DNA of 20,376 nt from a virus, in the IMG/VR virus record IMGVR_UViG_3300044675_002002, positions 1 to 20,376 of that record; one strand, 5' to 3'. Shown in pieces: positions 10,574 through 14,984 of this stretch. The notes below the pieces were generated by a model. It saw nothing but the letters and a program-made list of their open reading frames with translations, did not search any database and was not told the origin of the DNA. The position numbers and the translations under genes are program-made. The number at the start of each line of letters is the position of its first letter. The stretch's first letter is position 1.

Positions 10574-12730
10574 TTACCTCATTTGGTCTCTATAACCCTG
10601 CATACGAGAATTTTTCTTATTCATTGTTGATATAACTTTATCATCAATAACTATCTGAACTGGTTGATTTTGAATATCAGAACGTAATCCTTTAATTTCT
10701 TGTAATAATGCGTCAGATGAACTACCTTCAGGTGAATCAACACTACTTTTATCACCACCATCACCACCCATTCCAAGTGCGCTTGTAATTAAAGGTAACA
10801 TCATACCAAGAACCAAAAGAGTTGGTAAAAACAATGTTACCGCTGCGAGTCCAACTGACATTGCAAGTAACCCTACCCCTAATAACCCAAAAATACCTGC
10901 GAGAGCTATAAGACCTGGTGCAATTAATACCAAAGCGGTTAATTGTGTGGTTAATTCACCCATCATTCCAAATCCGGTAGCAATTTCTTGAATCGCTTTA
11001 CCAAGAACAAATAATGCGGATGCGATTACTAACATAGCAGCGGCACCAGCAATAATAGCTACTGCGCCTACACCTGACATCATAATAGTTCCAACTAATG
11101 CAAGAGCACCAACAAGGGCCAACATAGATACAACTGCCATACCAACGGCTTCCCAAGAAACACTCATAAATTCTTGAACTGCTTTACCAAATACAAATAC
11201 CGAAGCCGCTACTAATACAAGAGCAGCGCCACCTGCAATTAGTTTTTTGGCATCAATTTTTTCAATAGCATCGGTCATACCGCTAAACATACTACCGCCA
11301 CCAGCAGCGCCACCAGCACCACCACCAGCAGCACCAACACTTTTTGATAAATTTTTCATCATAAAATATTGACCTATCATTTGAGCTAAAAGTGGTAAAG
11401 ATGACATAGCACCTTGTTTGATAGTATTAAACATTGCTTTTTGAGCTGCTTCTTGTTCTTGAATAGCAATGGCTTGTTCCGTGGTCGTAACACCAGTTTC
11501 TTTCATTATTTTATCTAAAGCTTCTTGTTTAGTAACCATTTCAGTAAGTTGGTCTGATGTCATACCATATGATTCCGCTAAAAATCCAATTTGTTTAACA
11601 CCCATGTTTCCAAGTTGTTCGGAAGTTAGTCCAGCCTCTTTCATTGCCTCTGCCATTTGCTCCATACCTTGAGCTCTATCACCATATTGGATTTCCATGG
11701 CAGCGTTTCTCATCTTTTCAGTATCACCTAACATTTCGCCTAAACCAAATTGTCTGGCTTTCATTTGGGCTCTTAAAGATGATTCGACATCTAACATATT
11801 TGATGACATATCCTCCATTAAACCCATTGACATACCTTGTTTTTGTAATTGTGCTGTTTTTTGAGCAAGATATTTTAATTCTTCTTTTGATTTACCCACC
11901 ATAGCAGTCATATTTGAAGACATATCTTTCAAAACCGCAGAAGCATTAACTCCCGCATCTTGAGCAATTGCTTGGATTTCAGCAGTTAATTCAGAAGCAT
12001 TGCCTGATGCTGATTGGAATATGGAATTCATTTGGGCAGCACCCTCGACTCCCATAGCGCTTAATTTTGTAATATTTTTTTGCATATCAGCTGTAATTAC
12101 AGCCGTGCTTCCATAATATTCGGAAGCATCTTTTGCAGCATTTGCTAAGGCTTCACCACCATACAACAACCCCTCCATGGAAAGCATAGCAGACATGGTT
12201 TGTGCTCCCAATCTTGCAGATTCTGCGGCAGTAGCACCAGTTTGGGTATAAAGTTCTTTTGCAAGACCAACAGTAGATTCAAATGCTGAAGTAATCATTT
12301 CCGATGCTTTTTTAGCAAGAACCATACCGGCCCCAAACGCAGTTCCAGCCTTCAACATATCACCAAGAGTTCCCAATGACCCTAATAGATTATCTTTAAA
12401 GTCTTTGGTGAGGTCTTTTATTTCTTCTTCTTTATCTTTTTGTTGTTTTTTTAATTCAAGGATTTCCTTCATCCTATCTAACTGTTCAATATAAGTTTGG
12501 TTTACAGTATCACCACGTTGAATTTGTTCTAATAACAAATCATCAATAGCTTTTTGGATACTTTCAATTTGATTTCCAAGCTCTTTTTCTTCTTGTAATT
12601 TATCTAACAGCTGTGTTTTAACATCACGACCTTTTTCAGATAAAAAAAGATGCGTCTTTACACTATCTACAAGAGCGTTTTGAAGATTTATCTCACTTTG
12701 AAGTTGTTCTTTTCTATCACTAACAGCCAT
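10574..12730 (-). CDS. Tail tape measure protein
   Basis: A 718-residue protein with tape-measure architecture. Residues 1-110 are a Lys/Glu/Gln-rich coiled coil. Residues 115-430 are Ala/Met/Ser-rich helices (GATAAESARLGAQTMSAMLS and similar). A Gly/Ala linker follows at 466-480, then a block of strongly hydrophobic helices (498-650). The last part (690-702) is a short beta element, VQIVIDDKVIS. Within the hydrophobic block a module is duplicated: LVLVAASVFVFGKAVQEF (503-521) and MLVIASALFVLGKAIQEI (566-583). In the known family, length sets tail length and hydrophobic parts may enter the host membrane. At about 0.15 nm per residue, 718 residues would suggest a tail near 100 nm, a rough inference. 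Shine-Dalgarno AAGGA precedes the ATG. Confidence 0.8.
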   Translation of the reverse strand: MAVSDRKEQLQSEINLQNALVDSVKTHLFLSEKGRDVKTQLLDKLQEEKELGNQIESIQKAIDDLLLEQIQRGDTVNQTYIEQLDRMKEILELKKQQKDKEEEIKDLTKDFKDNLLGSLGTLGDMLKAGTAFGAGMVLAKKASEMITSAFESTVGLAKELYTQTGATAAESARLGAQTMSAMLSMEGLLYGGEALANAAKDASEYYGSTAVITADMQKNITKLSAMGVEGAAQMNSIFQSASGNASELTAEIQAIAQDAGVNASAVLKDMSSNMTAMVGKSKEELKYLAQKTAQLQKQGMSMGLMEDMSSNMLDVESSLRAQMKARQFGLGEMLGDTEKMRNAAMEIQYGDRAQGMEQMAEAMKEAGLTSEQLGNMGVKQIGFLAESYGMTSDQLTEMVTKQEALDKIMKETGVTTTEQAIAIQEQEAAQKAMFNTIKQGAMSSLPLLAQMIGQYFMMKNLSKSVGAAGGGAGGAAGGGSMFSGMTDAIEKIDAKKLIAGGAALVLVAASVFVFGKAVQEFMSVSWEAVGMAVVSMLALVGALALVGTIMMSGVGAVAIIAGAAAMLVIASALFVLGKAIQEIATGFGMMGELTTQLTALVLIAPGLIALAGIFGLLGVGLLAMSVGLAAVTLFLPTLLVLGMMLPLITSALGMGGDGGDKSSVDSPEGSSSDALLQEIKGLRSDIQNQPVQIVIDDKVISTMNKKNSRMQGYRDQMR

Positions 12731-13023: not shown

Positions 13024-13050
13024 AAATACCCAACAAAGTGTTGGGTATTT
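13024..13050 (-). terminator. Hairpin terminator after the chaperone-like gene
   Basis: Perfect 11-bp stem AAATACCCAAC / GTTGGGTATTT with loop ACTTT. It begins 1 nt after the stop codon of the +1-frame extension (13052), not after the zero-frame stop (13248), which itself argues that the intervening 200 bases are coding. The T tract after it is weak (ATTTCTATATTTA), and because the stem is symmetrical it could act in both directions. Confidence 0.75.
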
Positions 13051-13051
13051 A

Positions 13052-13261
13052 CTATTTTCTTGTTTTTGAACGAATTTTGGCAGCTTCTGTGTCATGAGCC
13101 TTCTTTTCATCCGTTTTGAATTCTATAATTTTGTTAATATAAAACTTTCTAACCCATATTGGAAAGTTGTATACATCGGAAAAGGTAAATCCACCATTTC
13201 CATGATATATTAAATCAAAAATATGTGAGTGGAGATGCTTTCTGTAACTAGGACTTAGGCC
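13052..13261 (-). CDS. +1-frame C-terminal extension of the gp26-like gene (no start codon of its own)
   Basis: A 69-codon open frame ending TAG at 13054-13052, in the +1 frame of the gp26-like gene. It has no ATG, GTG or TTG codon at all; the frame is closed by TGA just upstream of the T7 run. The peptide is clearly protein-like: SYRKHLHSHIFDLIYHGNGG, then FTFSDVYNFPIWVRKFYINK and a charged tail ending KIRSKTRK. The pattern IF.L.YHG.GGF...DVY..PIW.R.FY resembles what I recall downstream of gp26-type genes in T4-like phages (gp51-like position). Expression would need frameshifting from the upstream gene, giving a fusion of about 355 residues. Confidence 0.72.
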   Translation of the reverse strand, partial: GLSPSYRKHLHSHIFDLIYHGNGGFTFSDVYNFPIWVRKFYINKIIEFKTDEKKAHDTEAAKIRSKTRK

Positions 13262-13268
13262 AAAAAAA
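13248..13268 (-). other. Candidate programmed +1 (or -2) frameshift site
   Basis: Reading the minus strand in codons: ACC TTT TTT TGG CCT AAG TCC TAG. Seven T (13268-13262) would let Phe-tRNA move from TTT to the overlapping TTT, after which GGC CTA AGT CCT AGT TAC continues open. A slip at TCC TAG would lead to the same frame. The -1 frame closes at once (TTG GCC TAA), so +1 or -2 is required. An internal AGGAGG lies 27 nt upstream, near 13295-13303. Confidence 0.6.
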
Positions 13269-14120
13269 GGTCACATCCATAGGCAGTAGCATTTCCCTCC
13301 TTTCCCCAGTTTCCTCTGATACAAATTCCCATGTAAGGTCAATATCAGGAATAACTTCATTAATATATCCACGAAGAGCTTTAGAATCAACTGCGAATAA
13401 TTCATTATCAACAAAATGATTAATAGTTCGTTGTTCATGGTCACCATCTACCGAAAGAATCATCGCCTTTAAACGTGTTGTAAGTTCTCGTGAGGTTTCG
13501 TCTTTTAACTTACGATTTGCCTTTTTTATCTCCTCAACCTCATGTTTAACTTTTCTATCTTTAGATTCAGTCATAGCCATGAATGTAATTTTACGATTTG
13601 ATGTAGGTAATGTAAATTCAAATTCATTTTTATGAAGTTCTACTTGAGCAGACCCATCATATTCTTTATTTTCAAATTGAGTTAAATCAATAATATCTTT
13701 TTGTTTATTATTTGAAAATGGGTCTTGAATTTCTACTTCATAGTCTTTACCATATCCGAGAATACGAGCTGCAATCATAATTGCGTTTTTATCACCACTT
13801 ACTAAATCAACATATTTGATTGGTTGACCTTCGCCATTAGAGATGATAAGCGATTGAAACAATCGGTCAAGAACTGACCCATCTTTGATATATGATTGCG
13901 TTGTAAGAATATCTTCTTCTTTTGCAGTCATATATTTCATTTCAATTTTACCTGTCGAAAGGGGATTGTCTTTTGAGTAAACAAGCCCTTTCGATGGTAA
14001 GTCAATAATTTCAGTTGGAAATTTATAATCACGAACTTGTTGAACTTCGTGTTCATTTCTCAACTGAGAAACGATGTCTTTATTTGACATCCCTTTATAG
14101 TCATCTTGTAAATCTACCAT
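13248..14120 (-). CDS. gp26-family baseplate/tail assembly chaperone-like protein, short form
   Basis: A 290-residue protein. FPTEIIDLPSKGLVYSKDNP (34-53) and KIEMKYMTAKEEDILTTQSY (58-77) match the LPSKG...Y....GEI.iKymTa.EEDiLt pattern of the T4 baseplate protein family (PF12322, gp26-type), followed by RLFQSLII. The C-terminus ends DVTFFWPKS. Position between tail tube and tape measure is where tail assembly chaperones with frameshifted long forms lie in many phages. T4 gp26 itself is described as a baseplate hub assembly factor. The zero-frame stop lies four codons past a T7 run, and the +1 frame continues for 69 codons. ATG 14120 follows the leader AAAAAGTT without Shine-Dalgarno, 16 nt after the 84-residue gene. 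Confidence 0.75.
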   Translation of the reverse strand: MVDLQDDYKGMSNKDIVSQLRNEHEVQQVRDYKFPTEIIDLPSKGLVYSKDNPLSTGKIEMKYMTAKEEDILTTQSYIKDGSVLDRLFQSLIISNGEGQPIKYVDLVSGDKNAIMIAARILGYGKDYEVEIQDPFSNNKQKDIIDLTQFENKEYDGSAQVELHKNEFEFTLPTSNRKITFMAMTESKDRKVKHEVEEIKKANRKLKDETSRELTTRLKAMILSVDGDHEQRTINHFVDNELFAVDSKALRGYINEVIPDIDLTWEFVSEETGERREMLLPMDVTFFWPKS

Positions 14121-14495: not shown

Positions 14496-14984
14496 TTAGT
14501 ATTGTAAGATAGCGTAATCGTAAGTCAATGTTAATTCAACGGTTGCAAGGTCTTCACCTGCATAATCCATATCAGAAAATTTAGCTGTCTGAATAAATGC
14601 GCCTTTTAATGTCCATTCTTCTACTTTATCACCAACAGGACCCAAACTATTAAATGTGATATCTTTTTTATAGAAATCAGAATATCCATCACGGCCAGTT
14701 ACCGATTCGTGGTGTAAACGAACCCACTCCATAACAGCTTGTGCAGCTGAAGGAACTACGGCATCGTAAAGGGTTATTGCAACATCCGACCATTCAGAAC
14801 GACCCTTAACATATCTACGAGTGTTAATGTGGTCAATGGTAACTTTACCATTAACTATTTCGGGTCTAGCTGCTGTTTTTATCAAGTATGCGGGAATACC
14901 TTCAATATACATAATGAACCTATTGGACATTTTAGGTTCAAAATTGGTGAACATGATTTCATTTGGGTCAAGTAATTGTGCCAT
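14496..14984 (-). CDS. 19: Tail tube protein (gp19)
   Basis: 162 residues, the same length class as T4 gp19 (163). It has the tube-protein pattern NRFIMYIEGIPAYLIKTAAR (21-40), then RRYVKGRSEWSDVAITLYD (56-74), and a C-terminal strand set FIQTAKFSDMDYAGEDLATV leading to ELTLTYDYAILQY. It follows the sheath gene, as in T4 (18 then 19), with AGGAG before ATG 14984 and its own late element and terminator, so it can be expressed as a single-gene unit. It forms the hexameric rings of the inner tail tube. Confidence 0.92.
   Translation of the reverse strand: MAQLLDPNEIMFTNFEPKMSNRFIMYIEGIPAYLIKTAARPEIVNGKVTIDHINTRRYVKGRSEWSDVAITLYDAVVPSAAQAVMEWVRLHHESVTGRDGYSDFYKKDITFNSLGPVGDKVEEWTLKGAFIQTAKFSDMDYAGEDLATVELTLTYDYAILQY

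Follow-up and report, generated by a model that had tools for sequence, protein, structure and literature searches.

A putative gp26-like tail-assembly chaperone gene of an uncultivated virus is very probably expressed through programmed +1 ribosomal frameshifting

Here, we describe a gp26-like gene of an uncultivated virus that very probably encodes a tail-assembly chaperone and is expressed via programmed +1 ribosomal frameshifting, judging from the comparison of its sequence with those of its relatives. This comparison revealed a shared shift site, an extension that is coding, and a preference for +1 over -2 at sister sites, which together support a programmed +1 shift. The expression of the fusion, the ratio of its long to its short form and the chaperone function are what we infer from it. 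Frameshifted tail chaperones are classical, and a large T4-like group very probably makes use of such a shift, in the +1 direction. The window, i.e., the whole stretch of DNA that was analysed, comprises the 20,376 nt of IMG/VR record IMGVR_UViG_3300044675_002002, a record of about 20 kb.

Judging from ORF order and from comparison with Microcystis phage Mel-JY01 and Flavobacterium phage immuto, the minus strand of the window carries an apparent T4-type tail module. A large sheath-sized gene, a tube-sized gene, a small ORF, the gp26-like gene and another small ORF at about 12.9 kb are followed by a presumed tape measure gene and then by baseplate-like genes, all on the minus strand. Three of these genes concern us here:

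14496..14984, minus strand: presumed tail-tube (gp19-like) gene, a 162-aa ORF upstream of the gp26-like gene
13248..14120, minus strand: gp26-like gene, predicted short form of the tail-assembly chaperone (TAC-N), 290 aa, stop TAG included
10574..12730, minus strand: presumed tape-measure protein of 718 aa, the putative client of the chaperone, assigned by position and composition

The tube candidate was matched by size and order alone to the annotated tail tube gene of Mel-JY01. The 718-aa protein found no credible family match in Pfam or PHROG; the immuto gene at the corresponding position is annotated as tail tape measure protein. The location of the gp26-like gene between tail tube and tape measure, as proposed in the original prediction, thus agrees in order and size with the annotated Mel-JY01 and immuto.

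The gp26-like protein matches phrog_150, a baseplate hub family that holds T4 gp26 and gp51, with an E-value of 3.7e-7, and PF12322 with 20.9 bits (E 3.2e-4), which is below the curated cut-off of 24.5. T4 gp26 and T4 gp51 both match PF12322 and phrog_150, and the C-terminal part of gp51 also matches phrog_634. In an AlphaFold model of the gp26-like protein (pLDDT 87.5), the top Foldseek row was the HK97 tail assembly chaperone 2ob9 at E 2.2. A second structural comparison again gave 2ob9 as the best match, with Z 4.7 (which this tool classes as "possibly a common arrangement") and an rmsd of 3.2 over 77 residues, the next row having Z 2.2. The modelled resemblance to the HK97 chaperone is weak and suggestive only. 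A PDB sequence search with a gp26 profile returned three rows with E 0.6-0.8, which we regard as chance.

At its 3′ end, the gp26-like ORF reads ...ACC TTT TTT TGG CCT AAG TCC TAG on the minus strand, and the elements around the shift are the following:

13262..13268, minus strand: T7 shift site, read ACC TTT TTT TGG, with T7 and GGCC exact in relatives
13055..13261, minus strand: +1-frame extension (putative TAC-C) of 69 codons, GLSPSYRKHLHSHIFDLIYHGNGGF..., opening at GGC 13261
13052..13054, minus strand: TAG stop of the predicted long form, read from the sequence
13024..13050, minus strand: perfect 12-bp hairpin with a 3-nt loop, starting 1 nt past the long-form TAG

Several claims of the original prediction can be read off directly here: the gene stops four codons past T7 (TGG CCT AAG TCC, then TAG at 13250-13248), 69 codons of open +1 frame extend from GGC 13261 to the TAG at 13054-13052, and this extension has no ATG, GTG or TTG codon. 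A TGA in the +1 frame ends 2 nt upstream of T7, and TTTTTTTGGCC occurs once in the window as compared to 0.05 times expected. The perfect hairpin 1 nt after the TAG also exists as predicted, but its arms measure 12 bp instead of 11, and since it lacks a U-run, the label "terminator" is not supported.

An IMG/VR scan with the gp26-like protein gave, as the best 80 relatives among the matches listed, proteins of 72-100% identity; that of L001 is 100% identical to the protein of the window, and L001 may be the same virus. The T run and the open +1 extension are kept in all 80 of these relatives, one of which (L022) is on a contig that ends inside the extension. T7 and GGCC with a +1 extension are also found in the isolate Mel-JY01 and in MAG contig L273, which was the single relative in a scan of sequenced prokaryote genomes. 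A tblastn search of 50,697 phage records with the extension of the window found only Mel-JY01, four immuto records and LR756508 besides chance-level rows. The 81 loci of this group represent 62 distinct sequences, and most of them are related metagenome contigs, so that the counts given here are not independent events.

Among 59 distinct loci (Mel-JY01 included, duplicates and L022 removed), the extension has a pN/pS of 0.26 in the +1 frame, similar to the 0.29 of the final 100 gp26 codons, whereas the other two frames of the extension give 1.20 and 1.30 and contain 189 and 509 stops. This bears out the claim that the extension peptide looks strongly coding. The site itself is invariant, with codons TTT TTT in 59/59 distinct loci; TTC does occur at other invariant Phe codons, for instance in 28/59 loci at extension codon 25. 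A sequencing or assembly error in the T run, with the true gene in one frame or the extension a relic, would be conceivable in that homopolymers are error-prone and the loci mostly metagenomic. Against this, no length variant of the T run appears across the 80 contigs among the matches listed, isolates carry sites that are not homopolymers, and the extension is under purifying selection. Judged by these sequences, an error counts as refuted by the relatives, and we give it a negligible chance.

Where ribosomes would leave the gene had originally been left to two junctions, FFGLSPSYR and WPKSSYR. The latter is disfavoured, because in 48/81 loci, from the nearest +1 stop to the 0-frame stop, no codons other than the two UUU of T7 are able to re-pair at +1 in a cognate manner (cognate by our own definition, looking back at most 60 nt); in the remaining 33/81, a GGG codon can do so as well. 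In 28/80 window-group loci, the nearest +1 stop keeps the +1 frame closed until 2 nt before T7, and no upstream start in the +1 frame can therefore reach the extension there.

Searched by itself, the extension gave no Pfam match and no PHROG hit with an E-value below 0.18. Its predicted model has helices at 4-20, 27-31 and 35-67 (pLDDT 85.7), and a Foldseek search of the PDB found nothing below E 8. Among viral models, the best match was a 57-aa uncharacterised protein of Pseudomonas phage pf16 (prob 1.00, E 0.18); on the basis of this modelled similarity, the protein (BFVD A0A1S5R638) may be the TAC-C of that phage. The proposed HMM comparison suggests a link to gp51 that is indirect: profile comparison of the window-clade extension with cyanophage gp51 gave 83.6%, and cyanophage gp51 in turn gave 88% with the C-terminus of T4 gp51 (65% with the whole protein). 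Direct comparison of the extension with T4 gp51 failed to give this link (1.55% for the C-terminus, 0.48% for the whole). The extension probably is the C-terminal domain of a tail-assembly chaperone, and with the family matches, the gp26 model and the profile links taken together, the likely reading is that the short form is TAC-N and the long form TAC-NC.

The direction of the shift was judged at more distant relatives, which were collected in further scans seeded with immuto, the huge phage LR756508 and Bacillus phage SP-15, as well as with Streptococcus phage GXN1, locus L183 and cyanophage S-SSM7. The extension is in the +1 frame in 77/77 evaluable loci of the immuto group (80 loci) and in 15/17 of the LR756508 group (20 loci). 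The sites in these two groups are TTT-CTT-TGG, TTT-TTT-TGG, TTT-CTA-TGG (4 loci) and TTC-TTT-TGG (14 loci), and single phages have TTC-TTT-CGT (GXN1, 1 locus), TTT-TTT-CAC (SP-15) and TTT-TTT-AGT (LIS04). UUU followed by U or C is present within the last 14 codons in 188/188 +1 loci, although UUU-Y would partly be favoured by chance through the high UUU usage of AT-rich genes. One rule fits all +1 sites, namely a UUU in the P site followed by U or C, of which the T7 of the window is the UUU-U version.

The original prediction left open a -2 shift, which it cited for phage Mu. At T7, the P-site tRNA-Phe could indeed re-pair two bases back, and the resulting frame would be identical, with one extra Phe in the product. 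At TTC-TTT-TGG, TTT-CTA-TGG and TTC-TTT-CGT, however, the extension is in the same frame, yet -2 re-pairing fails, whereas +1 is fully cognate (UUU to UUU/UUC). While -2 is not strictly forbidden by the sequence at TTT-CTT-TGG or at T7 itself, we consider it very unlikely. A further way to reach the same frame would be transcriptional slippage on T7, producing mRNAs with 6 or 9 U from which the fusion is made by normal translation, and the exact conservation of the seven-T run within the clade would suit it. But sister clades have the extension in this frame too, and their T runs are 3 or 4 long, none of the three sites just named having a run above four, and in the window group the bases flanking T7 are conserved as well (C or G before, GGCC after), such that slippage is extremely improbable. 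Since the sister sites are cognate for +1, three of them exclude -2, and these three as well as TTT-CTT-TGG have no long T run, they point to +1 ribosomal frameshifting; the +1 half of the proposed +1/-2 shift that joins the gp26-like protein to its extension is thus supported, and the -2 half is disfavoured by homologous sites without a T run.

Under +1 frameshifting, the majority of ribosomes would terminate at the TAG at 13250-13248 and yield the short form (TAC-N). In a minority, the peptidyl-tRNA-Phe on a UUU of ACC-UUU-UUU-UGG would slip one base forward onto UUU, or onto UUC at sister sites, whereupon GGC would enter the A site and the 69-residue C-terminal domain (TAC-C) would be appended. 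The predicted junction of the long form is ...TFF-GLSPSYR.... By analogy to lambda gpG/gpGT, the short form would coat the tape measure protein, and the few long forms would recruit tail-tube subunits.

The same protein family also appears to use the opposite direction. In a cyanophage-like group (80 loci), the extension lies in the -1 frame via T TTT TTC in 78/78 evaluable loci (five rows flagged by their site pattern also have TTTTTTC further along). Further -1 cases are L274, a relative of GXN1, and the isolates Cr30, avDM12, S13, D481 and Syn2. The base before UUU nearly always separates the two directions: in the 188 +1 loci, it is C in 124, G in 54, A in 10 and never T, whereas it is T in 80/80 -1 loci and also in the five isolates, which lie outside these 80. 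The rule is a correlation among related sequences, but it is mechanically sensible, because a T before UUU completes the -1 heptamer. It is contradicted by cyanophage S-SCSM1 (L091, near 3685), in which T_TTT_TTC is intact, yet the extension is in the +1 frame with its own ATG; this is either a real exception or a sequence error. S-SCSM1 was left out of the tally for its contradictory frame. Also dropped were rows that are cut (L114, L151, L153, L224, L243) and L190-L192, which are cut or partial (L190 looks +1 and is untallied), duplicates (L172, the same phage as L085, and L284-L287, contigs already counted), and L086, K445 and VAP7, where the extension is a separate gene by TAATG; L022, while out of the pN/pS set, was kept in the site counts.

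A second feature accompanies the shift site:

13295..13307, minus strand: Shine-Dalgarno (SD)-like purine tract GGGGAAAGGAGGG within the gp26-like gene, roughly 26 nt 5′ of T7

Tracts up to a perfect GAGGAGGT/GGGGAGGT, under synonymous selection, are found at the homologous place in most of L002-L080, L173-L187 and L275-L283. In relatives of the window group, synonymous choice before the shift strongly favours Arg AGG (70/97, against 39/636 in the gene body) and Gly GGG (69/87, against 70/716). To locate the tract, the pairing energy with the 16S anti-SD was compared with that of shuffles preserving protein and codon usage, in 9-base windows whose distance is that between their end and the first T of the slip UUU. 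In the window group, pairing peaks at 23-27 nt (52 sequences; -9.9 versus shuffled -3.6 kcal at 26), in the immuto group at 21-26 nt (55 sequences; -8.6 versus -6.2 kcal at 24), and in the -1 cyanophage group at 7-11 nt (75 sequences; -8.3 versus -5.7 kcal at 7). The best site of single sequences falls at 22-26 nt in 40/47 distinct sequences of the window group (six are at 41-42, one at 2). It falls at 22-25 nt in 34/48 immuto sequences (three others lie at 37, and eleven lack a site <= -7 kcal) and at 7-8 nt in 50/74 cyanophage sequences (four elsewhere, twenty without a site <= -7 kcal). In the LR756508 group, the tract is exactly 24 nt away in 15/16, in L183 relatives 22-25 nt in 8/9, in MAG L273 25 and in Mel-JY01 31; it is weak in SP-15, and GXN1, LIS04, L189 and L279 have no strong one there. 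The relatedness of the sequences inflates the z-scores of the tract, such that its recurrence in several diverged groups is the stronger argument.

A review puts SD stimulators 3 nt upstream of +1 sites and 9-14 nt upstream of -1 sites (PMC5009743). The -1 loci thus come close to the classical spacing, and the +1 loci do not: the classical stimulator 3 nt upstream is absent from the +1 loci, whose tract mostly lies at 22-26 nt. In a search for a stimulatory structure 3′ of the site, RNAalifold found none near it that is conserved: across 57 loci, the energy was 0 kcal for +7..+70, and +7..+110 yielded a short stem well downstream (-2.9 kcal, z -2.2); pairing between purine tract and T run had z -1.55, and the window has no Rfam match at gathering thresholds. 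The same review mentions that 30S subunits may be retained for re-initiation by SD sequences close to the ends of genes (PMC5009743). In most window-group loci, the tract does lie ahead of an in-frame ATG (55/59), but initiation there was rejected as an explanation of the tract, because in L022, L023, L055 and L065 the ATG is ATA or ATC and the tract is retained, and because the immuto group mostly has Val at this position (49/61, of which 43 are GTT, GTC or GTA). The tract may act as a stimulator or a pause site for the shift. One can speculate, at somewhat less than even chances, that this is an undescribed +1 architecture, in which a near-perfect anti-SD complement about 25 nt 5′ of UUU-Y, a spacing that falls into neither of the two classes of the review, acts on the translating ribosome, and the base before UUU together with the spacing sets -1 or +1.

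The tract ahead of an ATG would also suit a situation in which the extension is a separate gene, translated by internal or re-initiation, with no fusion being made. This is likely the case in some relatives. L183 and L188 encode the extension separately (after position 2217), starting it from an ATG of its own and with an N-terminus added, a finding that the original prediction had named as evidence against itself. However, UUU-Y, which all 188 +1 loci possess, is gone in these two, where the site reads TTC TTG TAT and TTC CTT TGG (the latter, in L188, retains a prfB-like CTT-T), while it is retained in their neighbours L275 and L276. A third arrangement, a TAATG stop-start overlap between the gp26-like gene and the extension, is found in L086 and in the Vibrio phages K445 (L290) and VAP7 (L292). 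Within the window group, 35/81 loci have early TTG Leu codons in the extension, or GTG (L074), that might serve as starts. The other 46/81 have no ATG, GTG or TTG before the conserved GGF, the extension of the window itself has none at all, and the loci lacking the in-frame ATG and those with the +1 frame closed up to T7 argue in the same direction, such that we hold a separate gene in the window to be highly improbable and retain frameshifting as its explanation.

In a gp26 tree of 84 sequences, L183 and L188 are nested in the +1 clade (with L275, support 100/92), and thus present a natural escape from frameshifting within this clade. Five changes are needed on the tree among +1, -1 and separate gene, with several long branches being unsure. 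Relatives that seemingly switched direction or dropped the shift offer a direct test of how the ribosome is steered forward or back.

The original prediction knew of no established case for a gp26-type gene, but a 2022 paper on T4-like tail-assembly chaperones exists. In it, Vladimirov et al. reportedly proposed frameshifting for T4-like gp26 genes, conserved in several T4-like groups, while T4 itself is said to have separate genes 26 and 51. Later papers cite this work for T4-like chaperones encoded by a short and a long gene (PMC10274946) and for -1 signals made of poly-T in T4-like TAC-N genes (PMC12846349). A +1 tail-chaperone shift is called very likely in the haloarchaeal myovirus HSTV-2 in the review cited above (PMC5009743). 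Our literature search found no +1 case in a T4-like gp26 gene, a weak negative given that most subscription papers were outside it. As far as searched, three things are new: the use of +1, the one-base rule and an SD-like tract in a distal position. Within a single protein family, +1 and -1 users can thus be told apart by a simple sequence rule, with one known exception, and an SD-like element at an unexplained distance is flagged. The result also bears on annotation, since public annotations of Mel-JY01 and immuto miss the fusion. The Mel-JY01 annotation lists the extension as a hypothetical gene by itself (L082 4845-5081), and in immuto (L083 4839-4949), the region has only a small hypothetical gene of 111 nt.

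How does this gene compare to known systems? As in lambda gpG/gpGT and similar cases, one gene just upstream of the tape measure would give a short and a long chaperone by a shift near its 3′ end (PMC5009743), but the direction here is +1 instead of -1, a single tRNA would slip on a P-site UUU-Y instead of two on a tandem heptamer, and the protein family is that of T4 gp26/gp51. Vandenendeviridae likewise have a poly-T site at the end of TAC-N in a myovirus, and their extension is likewise mis-annotated as a separate gene or intergenic, whereas their shift is -1 with GTTTTT (PMC12846349). With bacterial prfB, whose +1 site is CUU-U and in a minority UUU-U (PMC5009743), the site shares a single P-site tRNA that would slip +1 onto UUU, as suggested by the sequences of the 188 loci. 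Unlike in prfB, there is no stop codon in the A site (the codon after UUU being TTT, TGG, CTT, CTA or CGT), and the SD-like tract is about 25 nt away instead of 3 nt.

Closest in protein family are T4 and the cyanophages. T4 gp26 and gp51 share the N-terminal family (PF12322/phrog_150), with gp51 consisting of the N part plus a C-terminal domain. T4 encodes its short and long forms in two divergently oriented genes, and the same review singles it out as not following the rule that tail chaperones are made by frameshifting (PMC5009743); here, one gene with a frameshift would take their place. The cyanophage gp26/gp51 (Kyanoviridae) belong to the same family and have an extension that is open through the junction in all evaluable loci, often with its own ATG just past the stop as well, but they differ from the gene described here by the -1 frame, the T TTT TTC site and an SD-like tract that lies 7-11 nt upstream.
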